A stretch of DNA of 64,000 nucleotides. Source: Bacteroidota bacterium (GTDB lineage: Bacteria > Bacteroidota > JABWAT01). Position 1 is the first letter of the stretch, and each line of letters opens with the position of its first letter. The position numbers and the translations under genes were made by a program. A model generated the notes under the pieces. The model saw only the letters and a program-made list of their open reading frames with translations, was not told where the DNA came from and made no database searches. The stretch spans positions 1 to 64,000 of the forward strand of contig JAFLBE010000010.1 in assembly GCA_017303995.1 (NCBI GenBank), given 5' to 3'. Below are positions 35,344 through 45,412 of this stretch, one piece after another.

Positions 35344-35407
35344 GTAGTAGGTAGGTTAAATAATTCAGCAAGTTCGTTGTATTTAAATTCATTCAAAATT
35401 TAAAATT

Positions 35408-35493
35408 GGCACCTCTAAACACCTTAACAAATGTCATCCCCAACTTGATTGGGGATCCATTATAATGGTAAAAACGAGGTTTTTTTGAGGTGC
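35408..35493. repeat. Nested palindromic intergenic element
   Basis: An outer inverted repeat GCACCTC (35409-35415) / GAGGTGC (35487-35493) encloses an 8-bp-arm hairpin ATCCCCAA-5-TTGGGGAT (35436-35456) and a perfect 12-bp palindrome at 35457-35468. GTCATCCCC...GGGGATCCA hairpins of this kind occur as dispersed REP-like elements in many bacteria. It lies in the 174-bp gap after the EnvC-like gene. Confidence 0.5.
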
Positions 35494-35517
35494 TCTGTAC
35501 CTAAAACAAATTAGTGG

Positions 35518-36147
35518 TTATTTTCTTTTCTTCTTTTTTATTGGTAACAACCCCTTCAAGACTGCTTTTCCGGCTGGTACGGAAACCGGCCCCATCGATT
35601 GTTTATATTCCCACTCATTGCAATCTGCATTAATGGAAAATTGAACAGAATTTCCGTTGATATAGGGAAATTCAAATTCGTACTTCAAAGCCAACTCATC
35701 TACAAGAACCGGTGATCCGGTTTTGATTTCTGTTCCCGGTTCAGAATCCGTAATAGTTACAGTTAAACTGGCAAGTGTAACCGGATGAAGAAGTTGAAAT
35801 CGAACCAGATTGGCAGTTTCGACTTTGTTGTGAACGATGTTCAGATTCAGGACAACCGGTCTCTGCCGGAAGTGGGAAAGTGCCAGTTGATAGGCTTTTT
35901 GTTTCCGGAGTTTGGATTGCTCTTTAAAGAAAGAGGAAGTCTGATTCAGTTTTGCAAACTTGGCTGCTTCCTGAAATTGCACCTGAGACAAATATTGATT
36001 GGCTGAATAGGCAGGTGTTTTCCGGGTTTGTCTGATCCTGAGCCTGGTGGTTCCGTTTTGATGAGTTGAAATGGCAAAGGTTTTATCGAGATTCTGGTTC
36101 AATCCGGAAATGACCGGATTTGGGTTTTGATATACGGGTGACTTCAT
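35518..36147 (-). CDS. Hypothetical basic protein
   Basis: A 209-residue protein I do not recognise, without signal peptide or membrane helix. The N-terminal 100 residues are rich in Gln, Asn and basic residues and look largely helical; the second half is predicted beta (VVLNLNIVHNKVETANLVRFQLL, LKYEFEFPYI); it ends in IKKKKRK. The strongly basic ends hint at nucleic-acid or phospholipid contact, but this is a guess. Three 11-bp direct repeats lie 38-73 bp before its ATG. Confidence 0.55.
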   Translation of the reverse strand: MKSPVYQNPNPVISGLNQNLDKTFAISTHQNGTTRLRIRQTRKTPAYSANQYLSQVQFQEAAKFAKLNQTSSFFKEQSKLRKQKAYQLALSHFRQRPVVLNLNIVHNKVETANLVRFQLLHPVTLASLTVTITDSEPGTEIKTGSPVLVDELALKYEFEFPYINGNSVQFSINADCNEWEYKQSMGPVSVPAGKAVLKGLLPIKKKKRK

Positions 36148-36184
36148 GATTCAGCCTTTCTTTGCTTAGTTTCCCGGGCAAAAT

Positions 36185-36246
36185 AACTATTGGATGACTA
36201 TTGGTTGACTATTCAGTGACGATCCGGAATGTTGAAACAATAGTGA
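36185..36246. repeat. 11-bp direct repeats plus one inverted copy
   Basis: Three consecutive 11-bp units sharing GACTATTGG (36185-36195, 36196-36206, 36207-36217; the third is less exact) and an inverted CACTATTG at about 36237-36244. One unit per helical turn suggests a protein-binding array controlling the gene at 36147. The rest of the 36148-36577 gap holds a hairpin and no gene that I can see. Confidence 0.4.
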
Positions 36247-36439
36247 TCCAATCGTTACTTCCCTGTAAAAATAACAGAGATAGATCATGCAATCGATTTA
36301 TTTGCTGCAGGGGACATCTTTTGGGATGAAGTTTAAACTGGTGAGGAAACTGAAATTGAAAATGTTACTTGTGAAGTAGTGAGGGCATGATAAAAAATGC
36401 TATACATTTCAGAGAAATACCTTTTTGTTTTGTAAACAC

Positions 36440-36474
36440 AAGTGATAAGTACCAATTTCCGGTACTTATCGCTT
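36440..36474. terminator. Long hairpin downstream of the FG-GAP gene
   Basis: Arms 36440-36453 and 36461-36474 pair over 14 bp with one mismatch (GATAAGTACC / GGTACTTATC core), loop AATTTCC. It lies about 100 bp past the stop of the minus-strand FG-GAP gene. There is no strong T run on either side, so it is a candidate 3'-end hairpin and not a certain terminator. Confidence 0.4.
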
Positions 36475-36577
36475 AAAAGGTGTTCGGTGTAAATTATTTC
36501 GAAATAAAATGCCAAAAACGGTTGGCGGTTGTGAAAAGTCAATGGGTACTTCACTTTAAACTTACACCAATTATGGG

Positions 36578-38500
36578 TCATTTTAGCAAGGTCACTTTAC
36601 TGATTCTGACTTGGTCGCCTGCTTGCAACCGGATGAAGTATTTACCTGATGCAAGGTTTTCGCCTTCGAATTCAACTTCATGTACTCCTGCCGGAAGCAC
36701 AGAATTGACAAGTTCTGCAACGTCTTGTCCCATCAAATTGAAAATTTTCAGCGATATATAGTCAGTTTCAGTTAAACTAAACCGAATGGTGGTAATTGGG
36801 TTAAAAGGGTTAGGGTAAACGGAAAGAAGATTAAATCCTGAAATAACTTGATTGACGCTGATTGTACCTGAGTACTGATAACCCCCATTGAGGTCAATTT
36901 GTTTTAATCTGTAGCACAATTCCTTACCGTTAGTAACCCCTGGAGAAATATCTTCGTAGGAATAAAAATGCGAGACAGTGCTTGTTCCATGTCCCTGCAC
37001 AAACCCAATGGCCTTCCAGTCATTTGTGTTTTTATCCGAAGAAGTCACTAAACGCTGCACTTCAAACCCATAATTCCCATTTTCCGAACTGGTTTCCCAA
37101 TCTAAAGCTACACCATTCGAAACACGATAACCATTGAGTTTTGAAAGCTCCACAGGAAGTACATTAGAATTCTGAAAGAGGTAAGCCGCACCTGCGTCAC
37201 TGATGCCATTTTGGCCTGTTTCATCATAATTTTGGTGAAATGCTCCAATAAGGCTGTAATCATTTAAAATGGCAACGGATATCCCGAAATTATCATAAGA
37301 ATTTCTGTCTAAGGCGGTTAATTTCTGTATTTCCGTCCAGTTCCCATTTTCCTTTTTGAAAAGGTAAGCAGCACCGGCATTACTAAGTGAATTAAGTTGA
37401 TTCTGATCAGTATCTTCCTGAAAAGCACCAACTAATGTAAAATCCCCAGAGACAGCCACAGAATAGCCAAATTGCGCTTCATAAGCCCTGTCTGAGGCGA
37501 CGACTTTTTTTGTTTGTCCCCAGTTTCCGTTAAGGTACTCAAATATGTAGGCAGCTCCGGTTGCTGAGATTCCATTTAGACCATTCTCATCATGATCTTC
37601 ATATCTTGCGCCAATTACTGCAATTGAATCAAAAATTGCCACTGAATATCCAAAATTGTCTGAACCCTCCCGATCTGTGGCAACTAATTTTTGTTCCTGT
37701 ACCCATGTGTTTGCCACCTTTTTAAAAATATAAGCCGAACCTGCATCTATTAAAGTAGATGTCCCAGCAGAATTTTCATTTTCCCAGGCTGACCCTACAA
37801 TGAAATGCTCACCTGACAATGAAACAGCACTACCAAAATAGTCTTTATAACCTCTGTCGTTACTAACAATTTTTTGAATTTGATTCCAATTATCAGAATT
37901 ATTTTTGAAAACATAGACAGCCCCTGCGGATTCAATTACATTTTGCCCGTTTGAATCGTAATCCTGATAACGTGCTCCAACAATTGCAAAATCCTGATCT
38001 ATTGCTACAGAATATCCAAAGTTATCAGCATCCATCCTGTCTTGTGCTGTTAGCTTTTTTATTTGTGACCAATGACCGGCTATGTTTTTAAAAATATAGG
38101 CTGACCCGGCATCATTCAGGTTATTATTACCCAGGCTATCCTCATTTTCCCAGGCGGCTCCTACGATTGCATAATCACCTGAAATACAAACCGAGTACCC
38201 GAAATTATCACCTACCGCTCTGTCTGAAGCCACAATTTTTTGTACAAACTCCCAATTACCCTCAATTTTTTTGAAAATATAGGCACCACCTGCTTCCCCC
38301 ATGTCGACCTGACGATTGATATCATTGTCCTCATGTTGTGCCCCTATTATAGCATAATTACCAGATATTGAGACTGACCCACCGAAATAGTCCCCCAAGT
38401 CTCGATCGGACGAAACCAGTTTTGTGACTTGATTCCAGTCCTGACCATTGGCCTGGAGGAAAGTAAAGTAAATTGAAATGAGAATTATAAATGCTTTCAT
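36578..38500 (-). CDS. Secreted FG-GAP repeat protein with type IX sorting domain
   Basis: A 640-residue surface or secreted protein. Signal peptide (KAFIILISIYFTFLQANGQ), then seven to eight repeats of about 50 residues of the FG-GAP_2 type, each like DNFGYSVAISGDYAIVGA with DAGAAYIFKK. These should fold as a beta-propeller. The C-terminus has a short FN3-like linker and a sorting domain opening with YPNPFNPITTIRFSL and ending ISKVTLLK, used for export by the type IX system. The start is taken at the ATG after a clear GGAGG; an in-frame TTG 12 bp earlier lies in that ribosome binding site. The ligand is unknown. Confidence 0.85.
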   Translation of the reverse strand: MKAFIILISIYFTFLQANGQDWNQVTKLVSSDRDLGDYFGGSVSISGNYAIIGAQHEDNDINRQVDMGEAGGAYIFKKIEGNWEFVQKIVASDRAVGDNFGYSVCISGDYAIVGAAWENEDSLGNNNLNDAGSAYIFKNIAGHWSQIKKLTAQDRMDADNFGYSVAIDQDFAIVGARYQDYDSNGQNVIESAGAVYVFKNNSDNWNQIQKIVSNDRGYKDYFGSAVSLSGEHFIVGSAWENENSAGTSTLIDAGSAYIFKKVANTWVQEQKLVATDREGSDNFGYSVAIFDSIAVIGARYEDHDENGLNGISATGAAYIFEYLNGNWGQTKKVVASDRAYEAQFGYSVAVSGDFTLVGAFQEDTDQNQLNSLSNAGAAYLFKKENGNWTEIQKLTALDRNSYDNFGISVAILNDYSLIGAFHQNYDETGQNGISDAGAAYLFQNSNVLPVELSKLNGYRVSNGVALDWETSSENGNYGFEVQRLVTSSDKNTNDWKAIGFVQGHGTSTVSHFYSYEDISPGVTNGKELCYRLKQIDLNGGYQYSGTISVNQVISGFNLLSVYPNPFNPITTIRFSLTETDYISLKIFNLMGQDVAELVNSVLPAGVHEVEFEGENLASGKYFIRLQAGDQVRISKVTLLK

Positions 38501-38537
38501 AGTTGCCTCCAAAGATCAAATTGCAGGTTTTTTTAGT

Positions 38538-38568
38538 AAACCGGGGCTCAATGACAATGCCCCGGTTT
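38538..38568 (-). terminator. Hairpin after the lipoprotein gene at 38583
   Basis: Perfect 10-bp arms AAACCGGGGC / GCCCCGGTTT at 38538-38547 and 38559-38568 with an 11-nt loop, 15 bp after the minus-strand stop at 38583. A run of T follows only weakly on the minus strand. Confidence 0.5.
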
Positions 38569-38582
38569 ATCCTATTACATGT

Positions 38583-39338
38583 TCAGGGGGCCGGCCAGGT
38601 GTAGGTTCCGGTGGAATTTCCAGCCGTATCGTAATAAGTGATCTCTCCCGATCCGTTTATAAACCACCGGGCATAGAACTTTTTAACCCCATTTGGCTTG
38701 TAGATAACGATCCCCGTTTTATCCTGGTTAAGTTCATACTCAACGATATCAGGTGTTGAGTCTGTTGAATTGTCCCAGTATTTGGCAGTACCGGTTTTTG
38801 TTCCGCCAGAATTGGTAGTCCAGTCTTCAGATCCCCAGATATAGCTTGATGTTGGTGATGTGTAAGAATATCCTTTGAAAGAACCTGACTTTGCATCTTT
38901 TGTATAAATCCCTTCAAAGGTCAGGGCATCGGTCAGAAGAACACTATTTTCGTTTTCTCCTGTCTGTGTCATTTTCATGCTTTGACTCTGCCCCACATCA
39001 GTGATGAGGATTTTCATTGAAAGATTTCCTTCAAATTCCGGATTTAAATCACTGGGCTTAAATTCAGCAACAAAACTGGATCCATTCTGTTTCCAGGTCA
39101 GTTTGTCATAAAATTGTAGATATCCTGCATAACTGCTTCCGATATCATCGGTAAATCCAACGACAAGAGCTACTTCATTTGCGTAATGATTGGACGGAAA
39201 GTCACCTAAAGTTGTTTGGTGTTTTCCAATGTTGACTTTATCAGGACCTGGTTTTGAACTATCATCCTCGTCTTTATCGCAAGAGGTCCCAATGATAATT
39301 GCAAAACAAATCGAAGCGATTGTTAGAACTGTACGCAT
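38583..39338 (-). CDS. Lipoprotein with acidic export-type N-terminus
   Basis: A 251-residue lipoprotein of unknown family: lipobox IGTSC (Cys20), mature end CDKDEDDSSKPGPDK. The acidic run with Lys right after the Cys resembles the lipoprotein export signal described for surface lipoproteins of Flavobacteria. The rest is a beta-rich domain with repeated Trp/Tyr/Ser segments (YSYTSPTSSYIWGSEDW). It is the last of three closely spaced minus-strand genes (39845, 39356, 38583; gaps 21 and 17 bp) and is followed by a hairpin. Confidence 0.65.
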   Translation of the reverse strand: MRTVLTIASICFAIIIGTSCDKDEDDSSKPGPDKVNIGKHQTTLGDFPSNHYANEVALVVGFTDDIGSSYAGYLQFYDKLTWKQNGSSFVAEFKPSDLNPEFEGNLSMKILITDVGQSQSMKMTQTGENENSVLLTDALTFEGIYTKDAKSGSFKGYSYTSPTSSYIWGSEDWTTNSGGTKTGTAKYWDNSTDSTPDIVEYELNQDKTGIVIYKPNGVKKFYARWFINGSGEITYYDTAGNSTGTYTWPAP

Positions 39339-39355
39339 AGCTGTGTCCTTTCAGG

Positions 39356-39823
39356 TTACAAGTCTTTGTTTTTAATGTATTGCATCAATAGAAATCCGAT
39401 CCATCCAATTCCTGCAAAAAGGAAAAGGGTAACAAGCCAAAAGCCCATTTCTGGTTTTATTTGAAACAAACCGTTACCTTCAGCAAGAATTTTCTGTTCC
39501 AAATCTGTCTTGAACCACCAATGAAGGGCAAGTGTTGTGAAATCGAGAATCCCGACAAATACAAGTGCAGTTTTGGTTCTTAAAAATCCAAGAAAAAAGC
39601 AGATAACAACGAGCCCCGCAGTTGCTATTGTGTAAAAAGAGGCCGGAATGTAACGGGTTTCTGTTTGGTCGAATGCATCCTTTGATTCGATTTTTTTTCC
39701 AGTCAGAAAATCAATTCCTGTTAATGAGGCAACAGTCTTGTTTTCGCAGGATATCGTCATCCAGGGTAAAAGAAAAGAAAGCAGAATAAATAAATGAATG
39801 CCGGAAGTAATTTTTGTTTTCAT
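39356..39823 (-). CDS. Four-helix membrane protein of unknown function
   Basis: A 155-residue integral membrane protein with helices at about 7-25, 64-82, 86-102 and 128-150 and a polar first loop (SCENKTVASLTGIDFLTGKK) that resembles a periplasmic loop of DUF-type four-helix proteins. I do not assign a family. It sits between two lipoprotein genes and is probably cotranscribed with them. Confidence 0.65.
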   Translation of the reverse strand: MKTKITSGIHLFILLSFLLPWMTISCENKTVASLTGIDFLTGKKIESKDAFDQTETRYIPASFYTIATAGLVVICFFLGFLRTKTALVFVGILDFTTLALHWWFKTDLEQKILAEGNGLFQIKPEMGFWLVTLFLFAGIGWIGFLLMQYIKNKDL

Positions 39824-39844
39824 ATGCTTCTCAACTGTTCATTA

Positions 39845-40669
39845 TTACTTTCCGCCACCGGCTTTGTAAACTGACTCTTCAATTTCTACCCAGTCCGCAT
39901 CTTTTCCCTGTTCCATTTTAAAATATTTCAGGAGAGGTTGAACGATGTAATCAAACCGGACTTTTTCGGTAACATTACCGGCTGCATCCGTTTTAGCTGC
40001 CATATCAATAAATGAAATTTTACCTTCGCCAGCTTTTTCCAAACTGATCGGAAATACAATCACCCCTGTTTGTTTCATCCCGGGCATGATTTCTTTGTTA
40101 AAGCCATTAATAAACTTGATCTTTTTAATTATATTTTTTAATGCTTTTTCAACCTGATCATTAACGTCCTCTGTATAAGGATAACTGCCCTTGATGTAGT
40201 CAGCTGAGTATTTAAAGGAGGGTAATTCGGTAAGATATTCTGTCATGTTTTCTTTGTCATAGGCCATAACAGGTTCATCAGAGTCGGGGTCAATAAAGGC
40301 TACCCGGCTATCCCGCATTCTCAGAATATGGTCGGTATTATTAATGATGGTTACTTCAATGGCAGTCATATCCCTGAAGATCGGGTAATTGAATTCCAGC
40401 GTTTCTTTCGAAAAATTGTCTGACCCCAACCCTTTCCTTATCACATTTACGGGTTGTTTGAAATCGGGGTGGGAATATTCCCTTGATTCAAGGGGCTTCA
40501 GGGAAATGGTGATGCCCTGATTCACTTGTTTTGCCTTTGTTTGATCCGCCAAGGCAGGTTCTGTTCTCTTCATGTATTGGACAGAAGGGGTTACAGCACA
40601 TCCCTGAATTAAGGGAAGAAGACCTGTTGACAGGGCAAGAACTCCGGCGGTGAAAATATTTTTTATCAT
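39845..40669 (-). CDS. Lipoprotein of unknown function
   Basis: A 274-residue lipoprotein: lipobox LIQGC (Cys24), then a mostly beta domain (GITISLKPLESREYSHPDF, AIEVTIINNTDHILRMRDSRVAFIDPDSDEP) of the kind seen in immunoglobulin-like envelope proteins, a helical stretch (DQVEKALKNIIKKIKFIN) and VIVFPISLE. No family is recognised. It is the first gene of the three-gene lipoprotein cluster and is divergent from the CHAT pair; the 239-bp gap between them has a TATCTTTG at 40700-40707 without a matching -33 element. Confidence 0.65.
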   Translation of the reverse strand: MIKNIFTAGVLALSTGLLPLIQGCAVTPSVQYMKRTEPALADQTKAKQVNQGITISLKPLESREYSHPDFKQPVNVIRKGLGSDNFSKETLEFNYPIFRDMTAIEVTIINNTDHILRMRDSRVAFIDPDSDEPVMAYDKENMTEYLTELPSFKYSADYIKGSYPYTEDVNDQVEKALKNIIKKIKFINGFNKEIMPGMKQTGVIVFPISLEKAGEGKISFIDMAAKTDAAGNVTEKVRFDYIVQPLLKYFKMEQGKDADWVEIEESVYKAGGGK

Positions 40670-40908
40670 AAAATTATCCTTAATTTAGTAAACATGTCAT
40701 ATCTTTGGTTTTGTCTCGTATAGCAACAAACCTTCAATACTCAGTGTTTTTGGTGAAAAATTGAGATAGCAGGTAGTTGAAAGGACTTATACAAAGTTCA
40801 GGATGGTTCTGAGTGCAGCAGTTTCAAAGCACTGATAAAAAAAGTGAGTTAATGAAACCGGGCAGGTTAACTCCGATCGTATTTTAGCTGGTTTTCAGGC
40901 AGTACGAA

Positions 40909-42264
40909 ATGATTATTCTTTATTACCAGTATATAGATAGCAAGGTTGAACTGGGTTCAGCGGAAACACTCGTTGGCACATTCGGCTCAAATAAAACAAA
41001 AACACGTAACACACTCAATACAAACCTTATTGTACTTAGGGAGTGCATTTTACGACAGGATTTTCAAGATAATCTTAAACCAAATGCTTCCGGAAGATAC
41101 CCTCAAAGCCCATTTTTTGAGGAAGACCATAGAAAGGTTAAACAAAATCTGAGGCGGAACTCCCTGCTAAATCACTTCATTTTATATGAGCCGGGTGGTG
41201 AAAGCCCTGCCATATGTATGCATTTAAAGATCCCCCCCTACTTCTGGATACCGGTTCCAAGTTATTTATGTTTGCCCATTGGGTACCAGTCAGAACCTGT
41301 TTCAGTTATGACCGATCTGACAGCTTCAATAACAGGAATTGTACTGAACGGAACCGTCATTCCTGGTGCCCTTCTTTCAGCGCTTGAGAGTCATGAACAA
41401 ATCCTGCTTCGCCGTAACATCGACTCTCTTACTGGGTTTTATAATTCTTTGTATCAGGATTTCTTAAGTAGGATGCCGGAAAATAAAAAACAACTTTTGG
41501 TCACCCTTCTAACGGAAATTTCCGAAGCAGCAAAATTTAAAATTGAAATTGACCGAAGAATCAAAGAATATTTTTTTCAGTCAAAGACAAAGGAAACCAC
41601 AAATGACATACAAGGCTCTGATTCTGGAGAAAAGAAAAATGAAGAAAGAGTGTTAAGACTTTACTTTTGTTGGCTCTACACTCAGTTTCATCGTTTTCTT
41701 CGGTTCGATAACTCACCAAGAGAAATCAATTCTCACATCGGTTCTATTTTAACTCAGGAACTCCATGTTCACGAAAGAGAGAGAATGCTTCGGATTGAAA
41801 CCAGAATAAATTCACCGGCAAGGCAGGTAGTATTGGTCAATTTAGGTAAAAACCCCAATATAAACATGATCAGGGCATTATTGATTTTACTCATCCCGGT
41901 TTTTTGGTTTTCAGCTTCATTTTTTCACAATCAAACATATTTCATTCAACCCGATGCCATTCTTGAAGAAGCAAAGTCTCTGAAAGCTGAGACTACATAT
42001 AGAGAAAAAACAGGTAAATATGTTCCACCTCCCGTTTATATCCGGTTGGGGTCGTCAGAATCAATAAAATATTACCAAATGGCGTTGGAAAAAATCGGGA
42101 ACTCGATAAGGAAAAATGGATTCGGTTTTTTTGCAATTGAGAACAGAGTTACATTCGTCGAAGGTAAAAAAATACTTGAAATGATAATCCGCCAATCGGA
42201 AGACATGAAAGTAAAAGAAAAGGCATCGGATTTATTAAGAGTATTGAACAAAAAGGGAGAATAG
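40909..42264 (+). CDS. Single-pass membrane protein, partner of the CHAT lipoprotein
   Basis: A 451-residue protein I do not recognise. Residues 1-319 lack a signal peptide and look cytoplasmic, with a mixed N-terminal domain (SLLNHFILYEPGG, YFWIPVPSYLCLPIG) and helices from about 150 on (IPGALLSALESHEQILLRRNIDSLTGFYNSLY). One membrane helix lies at about 322-340 (RALLILLIPVFWFSASFF), followed by a C-terminal domain of about 105 residues that would be outside, with a PPPVYIRLGSSESIKYYQMALEKIG helix resembling a single TPR-like hairpin. The ATG has no clear Shine-Dalgarno. It ends 4 bp before the CHAT lipoprotein gene, so the two very probably act together. Confidence 0.65.
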   Translation: MIILYYQYIDSKVELGSAETLVGTFGSNKTKTRNTLNTNLIVLRECILRQDFQDNLKPNASGRYPQSPFFEEDHRKVKQNLRRNSLLNHFILYEPGGESPAICMHLKIPPYFWIPVPSYLCLPIGYQSEPVSVMTDLTASITGIVLNGTVIPGALLSALESHEQILLRRNIDSLTGFYNSLYQDFLSRMPENKKQLLVTLLTEISEAAKFKIEIDRRIKEYFFQSKTKETTNDIQGSDSGEKKNEERVLRLYFCWLYTQFHRFLRFDNSPREINSHIGSILTQELHVHERERMLRIETRINSPARQVVLVNLGKNPNINMIRALLILLIPVFWFSASFFHNQTYFIQPDAILEEAKSLKAETTYREKTGKYVPPPVYIRLGSSESIKYYQMALEKIGNSIRKNGFGFFAIENRVTFVEGKKILEMIIRQSEDMKVKEKASDLLRVLNKKGE

Positions 42265-42268
42265 TCCT

Positions 42269-45200
42269 ATGAGATTTCTTATAATAATTTTACCCAAAAT
42301 CAGCTTTTTACTTTTACTAGTTGTTGGTTCTTTTTTTCAAACCGGTTGTTTCGAAACAACTCATCAATTAATTCCGGAAGATCCTGAACTTACCGAGATG
42401 AATGCCTTTCTCGCCAAAGCGGCGGCAATGAACTCAAAGCGGCAGTTCGACAGTTCAATTGTTGCTGCAGAAAAGGCACTCAAAATCATCAGAAAAAAGC
42501 AAAACCTGATTGATAAAGAACTTGATTGTCTCACCCTTCTTATGGGCAATCATTTAAATCTAGGTCATAATAAGTTGGCGATTGGCATTGGTGATAGTGC
42601 TCTGGCAATACAAAAAAGGTCGGGTCGTGATTCTGTCTCGGTGACTTCTCAAAAAATTATCAACAACCTTTCCATTGCATATAAAAGAATTGGGGAATAT
42701 GGGAAAGCTTTAAAGTATGGTGATTTGGCTTTTAACTACCGGGTTAAACTCTATGGGCTAGAGAGTACAGAAGTGGCAGCCAGTTTAAATAACATTGGTT
42801 TAATCTACTATGATCAACGACTTTTTCAGGATGCAATTGGCTACTTCAGAAAATCCATTAATATAAAAACTAAAATCATGCAACCCGACAATCCTGAATT
42901 TATTCCAAGTTACATAAATCTTGCAAACTGCTATTATTATAAGAGTAGTTTAGATACCTCAAAAGCATATGCAACTAATGCGCTTCAGCTTATTCAGAAA
43001 ACAATCGGGGAAGAATCACCCGAAGGTGGAAGAATTAATAATCTTATGGGGATTGTATACAGTGAAGAATACGACTATCCAAGAGCTTTGAAATTTTATT
43101 TAAAGGGACTGGAAATCCGGAAAAAATTGCTCGGTAGTTCTCACTTTGAGACGATTCAATCGATGAGCAACATTGGGACCTTGTTTGCCGATTTTGGTGA
43201 ATATGAAAAAGCGATTTCTGTTTTTTCGGACGTTATCAAAGAAACAATTGAATTCAGGGGAAATGAATACCCAGACCTGATTGGGTTTTATAAAAATATT
43301 GCGGCATCTTACTATGAATTGAGAAATCTTGAAAAAGCGGCATTCTATACAACAGAATCTACCAAACTCTGTACAAAACTATTTGGAAAATATCATAGTT
43401 ACATTTTTAGCGATCTGACTAACTATGGAAATATCCATGATGTGAAAAAAGAATATTTACAGGCATTGAATTACTACCAGCTTGCTCTTGCTCAATTGGA
43501 TAGTATCGGTGATAACTCTGATCGGTTGTATGAGGCCGAAACTTATAATAGTATTGCCAACACCTATCGTAAAATGGGAAAACAGGACTCTGCTTTTGTT
43601 TTCCTGAATAAATCGCTTTCAATTATATATCAAAATGAGGAGTTTAAAAAACCTGAATCTTGGCCTGTTTATCCTGAAAACCCACGCCGCTATTTTGCTT
43701 TGAAAACGCTTTCTTTGAAAAATGAGACCTACTTAAGTCTTTACTTTAAAACAAAAAGGAAAAAGTTTTTGCTTGAGTCATTAATACTCAATGAAAAATT
43801 GATGGATTTTATTGACGACAGTCAAATGATTTACAGTGATGACAATTCAAAACACAATTTTACTGAATACAGTGAAGATGCCGCTTCTCTTTATATTTAT
43901 GCCCAATATGAGCTTTATAAAAGGGATAAAAACCCTGAAAGGGCGAAAAAGGCCTTGGCATTTTCCGAAAGGAGCAGACAGCGTTTGGTAAACGAACATT
44001 ATTTTTTACTGAAGGAAAAGGTGAAAGGTGACCATAATAGCCTTCTGTTTGATCAGGATTCTGTTCTTTCATCAGAATTATTAAAAATCGAAAGTGGTAT
44101 GGAGGTGTATTCTGTAAACTCTAAGGAGCCTGAGTTTTTGGAAATGCAGTCAAATTTTGCCAGTACCGTTCTGAAAAGGGGAGAAATCAGAAAAAAATTA
44201 CTTGAAAAGTATAATCCAAAATTTCAAACACAGAATTTAATCACACAACAACTTTCAGAATCCGGAAAATTGCCTGGTAATCCAGCATTTATTGAGTATC
44301 ATCAAAATGACACAATATTATTTATTTTCCTGATCCAAAAAGGAAAGGTTGATTTTTTCAGAAGCAGTATTCCTGCCAATTTTAAGACAATAGTCCAGGA
44401 ATATCAGGAATCAATTAAATACTCAGATCAGGATTTGTTTTTAAAAACAGCAGCTCAACTGTATAACCTCCTTTTTAAACCGATACAGTCTCACTTAAAA
44501 AGCAAATCATTAATTATTATTCCACACAACCAAATCGCACTAATTCCGTTTGAGTCTTTAATAATCCCCTCAAAAACACGAAAGACATACTTTTTGGTTG
44601 AGGATTACCACATTCAATACATGAATACTTTTTTGAATCAGGGAAAAATTGAGAATAGTTCAATAACGCCAAAAAAGTATAAGTGGTTTGGTGTTGCACC
44701 TGTCAGGTTCAGGTACTCCGGTTCTGATTCCCTTATTTCACTGCCAGCATCACTAAATGAGATGAATAAAATTAAAATGTTGTTCGACCAAAAGAAATTT
44801 CCCGCTTTTACTCTAACTCAAAATTATGCAACAAAGACAGGTTTGCTTCAATCGGACTTTCAAAACAGCTCAATTTTACACTTTTCAACGCATTACACAA
44901 TCAACACAACAAACCCATCCCTTTCTTATTTAAATCTTTCTTCAGAAAATTCTTCAGATGATTATAAACTTACACCAGGGGAAATCGAAAAAATAAAATT
45001 TAAAGGGGATTTGGTTGTACTCAATGGTTGTGAAACAGCAAATGGAAAACAGTATCCTGGCGATGGACTTTATAATTTAACCCGTTCATTCTTTCTTGGT
45101 GGATCACAAAGAATACTTGTCTCGGTTTACCCTGTCCAGGACAATTTAGCAACGGAATTTATGGTAGATTTTTATCAGGAGCTTCTAGAAAATAACCAAA

Positions 45201-45313
45201 CCTACGGTATGGCGTTAAGACAAGTAAAATTAAAAAGAATAGAGGCAAACAAACCCGTTTCTGAATGGGCTTCATATTTATTGTACTCGAAAGAGCGTCC
45301 AATTGACTTTTAG
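42269..45313 (+). CDS. TPR-CHAT lipoprotein (caspase-like protease)
   Basis: A 1014-residue lipoprotein: lipobox FQTGC (Cys27, with Phe at +2, so probably outer membrane). Residues about 45-480 are TPR_12-type repeats (NNLSIAYKRIGEYGKALKYGDLAF, SLNNIGLIYYDQRLFQDAIGYF); about 480-700 is a helical linker. The C-terminal 300 residues are a CHAT domain of the caspase/separase clan with the catalytic pair intact: His875 in LHFSTHY and Cys921 in VVLNGCETANG. The usual Gly after the His is Tyr. CHAT proteins are proteases; TPR-CHAT is known as the Craspase protease, but here no CRISPR genes are present and the protein is exported. Upstream partner is 4 bp away. Confidence 0.85.
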   Translation: MRFLIIILPKISFLLLLVVGSFFQTGCFETTHQLIPEDPELTEMNAFLAKAAAMNSKRQFDSSIVAAEKALKIIRKKQNLIDKELDCLTLLMGNHLNLGHNKLAIGIGDSALAIQKRSGRDSVSVTSQKIINNLSIAYKRIGEYGKALKYGDLAFNYRVKLYGLESTEVAASLNNIGLIYYDQRLFQDAIGYFRKSINIKTKIMQPDNPEFIPSYINLANCYYYKSSLDTSKAYATNALQLIQKTIGEESPEGGRINNLMGIVYSEEYDYPRALKFYLKGLEIRKKLLGSSHFETIQSMSNIGTLFADFGEYEKAISVFSDVIKETIEFRGNEYPDLIGFYKNIAASYYELRNLEKAAFYTTESTKLCTKLFGKYHSYIFSDLTNYGNIHDVKKEYLQALNYYQLALAQLDSIGDNSDRLYEAETYNSIANTYRKMGKQDSAFVFLNKSLSIIYQNEEFKKPESWPVYPENPRRYFALKTLSLKNETYLSLYFKTKRKKFLLESLILNEKLMDFIDDSQMIYSDDNSKHNFTEYSEDAASLYIYAQYELYKRDKNPERAKKALAFSERSRQRLVNEHYFLLKEKVKGDHNSLLFDQDSVLSSELLKIESGMEVYSVNSKEPEFLEMQSNFASTVLKRGEIRKKLLEKYNPKFQTQNLITQQLSESGKLPGNPAFIEYHQNDTILFIFLIQKGKVDFFRSSIPANFKTIVQEYQESIKYSDQDLFLKTAAQLYNLLFKPIQSHLKSKSLIIIPHNQIALIPFESLIIPSKTRKTYFLVEDYHIQYMNTFLNQGKIENSSITPKKYKWFGVAPVRFRYSGSDSLISLPASLNEMNKIKMLFDQKKFPAFTLTQNYATKTGLLQSDFQNSSILHFSTHYTINTTNPSLSYLNLSSENSSDDYKLTPGEIEKIKFKGDLVVLNGCETANGKQYPGDGLYNLTRSFFLGGSQRILVSVYPVQDNLATEFMVDFYQELLENNQTYGMALRQVKLKRIEANKPVSEWASYLLYSKERPIDF

Positions 45314-45412
45314 TAAAATGATCGATTTGGTTTTAAGAAAAAAGAGACTGGTTGGTGAAAATAAATTCGGTAAACACGAATTTTCAATTTAAAATTTAAA
45401 ATTTAAGCTTCA

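Follow-up and report, generated by a model that had tools for sequence, protein, structure and literature searches.

Does an exported caspase-like protease act together with the membrane protein of no recognised family that is encoded beside it and, if so, in which direction would a signal pass? CHAT proteases are familiar above all as death or CRISPR effectors in the cytoplasm. The two genes that raise this question lie in a window of 64,000 nt, the whole stretch of DNA analysed here, from Bacteroidota bacterium GCA_017303995.1 (contig JAFLBE010000010.1, positions 1–64,000, forward strand). As a preliminary description of this DNA had reported, a 451-residue ORF, hereafter the partner, stands 4 bases upstream of a 1014-residue CHAT ORF; both are on the + strand and begin with ATG. 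The features of the region, by ORF coordinates, are the following.

35344..45412, no strand assigned: lineage-specific insertion of about 10 kb with seven genes, the pair and five minus-strand envelope genes (from the synteny of relatives)
40909..42264, + strand: partner gene, 451-aa single-pass membrane protein of an undescribed family, ATG start
40909..41868, + strand: predicted cytoplasmic domain of the partner, residues 1–320, common to all four family members (alignment A1)
41869..41925, + strand: transmembrane helix of the partner, residues 321–339 (Kyte-Doolittle maximum 2.06; paralogue helix at the equivalent place)
41926..42261, + strand: outer domain of the partner, about 110 residues, mostly helical, also in the transmembrane paralogue (L005:8808-10124)
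42269..45313, + strand: TPR-CHAT protein, 1014 aa, predicted to be exported, ATG start (Pfam)
42269..42349, + strand: putative N-terminal export signal of the CHAT protein, residues 1–27, ending FQTGC (Cys27), KD 2.49
42653..43624, + strand: TPR region of the CHAT protein, residues about 129–452, kinesin-light-chain-like (Pfam TPR_12/TPR_10; phmmer)
44444..45286, + strand: CHAT domain, residues 726–1006 (PF12770, 1.2e-43)
44891..44893, + strand: catalytic His875, aligned with the His of the paralogous CHAT
45029..45031, + strand: catalytic Cys921, aligned with the Cys of the paralogous CHAT

A TPR-CHAT protein that is very probably exported

The downstream protein was matched by the Pfam family PF12770 with 150 bits, against a cut-off of 24 (E 1.2e-43). 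N-terminal to the CHAT domain, Pfam detected TPRs (TPR_12, 1.4e-36), which resemble those of kinesin light chains (4e-16, phmmer against PDB sequences). The catalytic pair proposed earlier, His875 and Cys921, is present and aligned with the dyad of a paralogue. The protein has the TPR-CHAT architecture and the His-Cys dyad of CHAT (PF12770) proteases, from which its activity is predicted. Its only PADLOC match was a generic TPR model.

The N-terminus is strongly hydrophobic and resembles a signal peptide (KD 2.49). It had been taken to carry a lipobox at Cys27, a claim that we do not retain: FQTGC has Gln at −3, fits neither PROSITE PS51257 nor the pattern [LVI][ASTVI][GAS]C, and is at best a non-canonical signal of a bacterial lipoprotein. 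A simple scan found an N-terminal hydrophobic segment in 64 of 67 CHATs, that is, the four of this genome and 63 from a survey of Bacteroidota described below. The window protein, like nearly all of these relatives, is very probably exported, in agreement with its proposed place outside the cytoplasm. Lipidation is not established, and the property that these CHATs appear to have in common is export.

The partner belongs to a small undescribed family

Only one strong hydrophobic segment was found in the partner (residues 321–339), and the charges that flank it are consistent with an N-in/C-out orientation. A weaker peak at residues 141–159 (KD 1.69) corresponds to sequences that are not hydrophobic in the paralogues. 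The predicted topology agrees with the layout first suggested, about 320 residues inside, one helix and about 105 residues outside, the outer part measuring about 110.

The partner had also been said to lie outside known families, and this held for every library searched: there was no match in Pfam, NCBIfam, PADLOC, PHROGs or PDB sequences. The best PDB profile match, a V-ATPase at E 0.21, was taken as chance. The genome itself (G000, 4.3 Mb, 98% complete) encodes two further members in tandem on contig C73, at 22–25% identity to the window partner. One is a soluble protein of 308 residues, and the other, of 438 residues, has the same helix and outer domain. A fourth member, again soluble (312 residues), is encoded in the sister species Bacteroidetes bacterium isolate BAC1.

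Alignment of the family (A1) places the two soluble members along the cytoplasmic domain, with neither membrane helix nor outer domain. The conserved residues of this domain are mostly aromatic or hydrophobic (PPxFWI, YFxWL, ExER), which suggests binding rather than catalysis; no obvious catalytic set was recognised among them. The short outer domain shows little conservation from one paralogue to another.

A profile search found no member outside the genus in 395 Bacteroidota genomes, none in 341 genomes of the class of G255 and none in viral, plasmid and phage records, with a profile that is weak because it rests on four sequences, so that distant relatives may exist. Two matches at E about 0.007 in the 395 genomes came from frames that were short or stop-ridden and were discarded.

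Structure prediction was of low confidence. An AlphaFold model of the whole partner, with one homologue in the alignment and the paralogues left out, had a pLDDT of 35. The outer domain alone, modelled by AF2 from its single sequence, reached 63 and was not a plain TPR; a Foldseek search with this model returned nothing significant (best E 0.44).

The pairing recurs at a second locus

A search of the genome with PF12770 revealed exactly four CHAT genes at two loci, one in the window and three clustered on C73. The partner family occurs in this genome only at these CHAT loci, and at both a member lies directly upstream of a CHAT gene. On C73 the order is soluble member, transmembrane member (438 residues) and exported CHAT (892 residues), the stop of the second gene and the start of the third overlapping by 4 bp. 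This order parallels the sigma, anti-sigma, CHAT order described below. Because partner-family genes directly precede CHAT genes at both loci, the pairing is not a matter of chance.

In a tree of 67 CHAT sequences, the two partnered CHATs were located in different parts. A tree in which they were forced into one clade was rejected (lnL 16 lower, p-AU 0.01), a result to be read with caution as both are long branches. They are not sister sequences, and the pairing therefore arose or was swapped more than once.

No CHAT gene was found in the other three genomes of the organism's family. The expectation that the pair would be conserved was borne out at the second locus of the same genome and not in relatives, since it is absent from all three that were compared. 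The pair is real, recurrent inside the genome and lineage-restricted.

The pair lies on a lineage-specific insertion

The genes on either side of the region, an M23-type peptidase gene and mtaB (names from reading of the sequences), are adjacent in all three relatives compared. Therefore, the window holds an insertion of roughly 10 kb. GC content is lower in the pair (0.38 for the partner, 0.35 for the CHAT gene) than in mtaB (0.45) and rpsA (0.46).

A 16-bp AT-rich motif, TTCAAAATTTAAAATT, expected 0.06 times in the window, is present near both edges of the insertion (35392–35407 and 45388–45403, spacing 9,996 bp). Since the empty site in G002 has copies as well, a simple target duplication does not account for the motif. 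A two-gene block at 38583–39823, encoding a lipoprotein of about 250 aa and a membrane protein of 155 aa, is paralogous to L137:10774-12081, where the two genes are adjacent in the same order and 52–59% identical. The latter block precedes the CHAT cluster of C73 by about 10 kb. Further lipoprotein copies exist in the genus, at places other than partner/CHAT loci. At 36578–38512 lies a gene for a protein with FG-GAP repeats and the C-terminal tail of type IX secretion (PF14312, PF18962), an indication that the host possesses both a type IX system and an outer membrane.

Many related exported CHATs adjoin ECF sigma and anti-sigma factors

The survey covered 63 CHAT genes at 60 Bacteroidota loci, 20 picked for their resemblance to the window CHAT and 40 spread across families. 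About a third of these CHATs adjoin an ECF sigma factor and a single-pass anti-sigma factor. An ECF-like sigma gene was found at 20 of 123 positions two genes away from a CHAT gene, versus 3 of 302 positions four to seven genes out (Fisher p 4e-9, the positions not all being independent, as L082 and L103 are near-copies). The intervening gene usually encodes a single-pass protein with about 75–150 residues inside and 110–180 outside. Pfam recognised Sigma70 domains in the sigma genes, and zf-HC2 and outer TPRs in some of the intervening ones; intervening proteins with no Pfam match were called anti-sigma from their position and layout. The loci with this neighbourhood are given on the next line.

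ECF sigma, single-pass anti-sigma and exported TPR-CHAT as neighbours: L047, L051, L052, L055, L057, L064, L065, L067-L072, L074-L078, L082, L096, L102, L103, L105

At these loci, the outer domains of several anti-sigma factors are TPR-like, and others resemble Ig domains by eye. In a profile comparison with them, the outer domain of the partner aligned over 32 columns, a marginal likeness that one of 60 shuffles equalled. At eight loci of one Bacteroidota family (L049, L050, L057-L060, L062, L063) the CHAT gene was seen, by eye, to follow an ftsY-like gene.

The window CHAT is one of the 11 members of a clade (support 97/89) that includes five sigma-linked CHATs. Its nearest relative, L047, has sigma, anti-sigma and CHAT genes in this order on one strand; support for the sister relation itself is weak (96/59), and the branch of the window CHAT is long. 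A search of one literature library for CHAT proteins with ECF or anti-sigma factors yielded no paper describing the Bacteroidota triplets; it returned mainly Craspase papers and an account of EACC2/ECF caspase systems (PMC8195603).

For an exported TPR-CHAT, a single-pass membrane protein is no exceptional neighbour: about a third of the CHATs surveyed in Bacteroidota adjoin such a protein, usually an ECF anti-sigma factor. The view that both the partner and its pairing are undescribed is correct for the partner family, which is new to the libraries searched; the kind of arrangement is, by this survey, widespread in Bacteroidota. What is new here is the cytoplasmic domain of the partner, within a variant of that arrangement.

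A soluble family member heads an operon that lacks CHAT

In the sister species (L006:8233-17201), the soluble family member is the first gene of a vWA/FtsZl1 operon with no CHAT. It is followed by genes for a vWA-like lipoprotein, a multi-pass membrane protein, a Tubulin_2/FtsZl protein and a large protein that is conserved in other FtsZl operons. Operons of this type have been described previously (Makarova and Koonin 2010, PMC2875224). In contrast to this one, those found elsewhere in Bacteroidota begin with the vWA gene, and no divergent partner-family member was detected in them. The partner domain is therefore not dedicated to CHAT proteins.

An outside-to-inside relay as the best reading

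The pair had been proposed to form a transmembrane relay. Layout, predicted topology and recurrence make this the best reading still, and we would refine it as a lineage-specific replacement of an anti-sigma factor; that the relay runs from outside to inside, with the partner as substrate and its cytoplasmic domain as regulator, is what we infer. We put at slightly under even the chance that the pair is a cell-envelope signalling module in which the CHAT protein acts on its inner-membrane partner as acceptor. The TPR-CHAT protein would be exported and work in the periplasm or on the outer membrane, where its TPRs may sense or bind an envelope ligand and in this way gate its caspase-like domain. 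The CHAT protein would have its docking site or its substrate in the partner's outer domain. Binding or cleavage there would alter the state of the large cytoplasmic domain, which would pass the signal onward to a putative cytoplasmic output. The partner would thereby fill the place that an ECF anti-sigma factor has in the commonest Bacteroidota arrangement. For that arrangement and the pair alike, the simplest shared model would have the CHAT protein act on the outer part of its single-pass neighbour, the effect travelling inward.

This reading draws on the operon-type gene order, the export-type N-terminus, the dyad and the topology prediction. It draws further on the position of the partner directly upstream of CHAT genes of different lineages at two loci, and on the ECF sigma/anti-sigma linkage of related exported CHATs, including the clade of the window CHAT. 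By analogy, it may also lean on a precedent, the cleavage of Csx30 by Csx29 (PMC10028731). Several observations speak against it. For the cytoplasmic domain no relative with a known function could be detected, no sigma factor gene lies near the pair, and a soluble family member heads a CHAT-free vWA/FtsZ-like operon. Furthermore, the likeness to anti-sigma outer domains is marginal, the outer-domain model is not a plain TPR, and localisation is a prediction from sequence.

Compared with the sigma/anti-sigma/CHAT triplets, the pair likewise has an exported TPR-CHAT adjoining a single-pass protein with an outer domain, and its CHAT sits in a clade rich in sigma-linked CHATs. It differs in the inner domain, 320 undescribed residues versus the roughly 75–150 of an anti-sigma domain. 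The partner has neither the zf-HC2-type domain nor the cognate ECF sigma gene that define an ECF anti-sigma factor; its likeness to one lies in position and layout, not in sequence. DegS/RseA/RpoE combines a periplasmic protease, the PDZ serine protease DegS, with a single-pass inner-membrane regulator. The pair may share this logic with no homology, cleavage being only putative in its case. The same regulated proteolysis was compared with Craspase in PMC10028731. There, the His-Cys TPR-CHAT protease Csx29, of type III-E CRISPR, cuts its genetic partner Csx30, an inhibitor of an ECF sigma factor (CASP-sigma), which is thereby freed (PMC10028731). Csx29 is cytoplasmic and gated by Cas7-11 and target RNA (PMC10028731), whereas the window protease is predicted to be exported, and its partner is membrane-bound with no detected sequence relation to Csx30. 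No Cas genes, such as those of Craspase (Cas7-11/gRAMP, Csx30), were recognised among the neighbours of the window or C73 loci.

Alternative explanations

The partner might be a mere inner-membrane anchor, a folding or export helper, or an inhibitor of its CHAT, with no part in signalling. The tight operon and the one-to-one pairing with a diverged CHAT speak for such a role, and the long branches of the two CHATs that directly follow a transmembrane partner fit the co-evolution of a bound pair. A cytoplasmic domain of 320 residues, however, exceeds what an anchor needs, and the soluble members have neither helix nor outer domain; we consider this explanation unlikely. The signal could also run the other way, the cytoplasmic domain sensing an internal state and, through the helix, releasing or activating the exported protease to cut envelope or surface targets. 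Such gating would suit the pattern of conservation in the family, which is concentrated in the cytoplasmic domain, the outer domain being short and variable, and also the first position of the partner-family gene in each operon. Related exported CHATs, however, most often neighbour ECF sigma/anti-sigma pairs, and as these signal inward, we regard this direction as rather improbable.

A role in phage defence or abortive infection, with the caspase-like protein as effector, comes to mind because TPR-CHAT proteins act in type III-E CRISPR and the pair is on a lineage-specific insertion. Yet the partner matched no PADLOC family, the protease is predicted to be exported, no defence genes were recognised around the window or C73 loci, and phage and plasmid records contained no homologue of the partner; there is little to recommend this idea. 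Least credible is an accidental juxtaposition of two unrelated genes in a variable region. Absence from three relatives does indicate that the pair has not been long conserved, but the same families are combined in the same order and orientation at a second, independent locus, by which this explanation is already disfavoured.

Significance

A broader scheme, which we offer as a doubtful extension, is that a caspase-like family would serve in the periplasm of Bacteroidota as the site-1 protease of transmembrane signalling and cut the outer domains of single-pass regulators. ECF anti-sigma factors would be its usual clients and the partner family a sigma-free one, whose cytoplasmic domain may also be wired to an FtsZ-like membrane-remodelling operon. 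In the window, the position usual for an ECF anti-sigma factor is filled by an unrelated membrane protein. If the outside-to-inside relay is true, a caspase-like enzyme would have a role in ordinary envelope signalling, with a candidate substrate encoded alongside.
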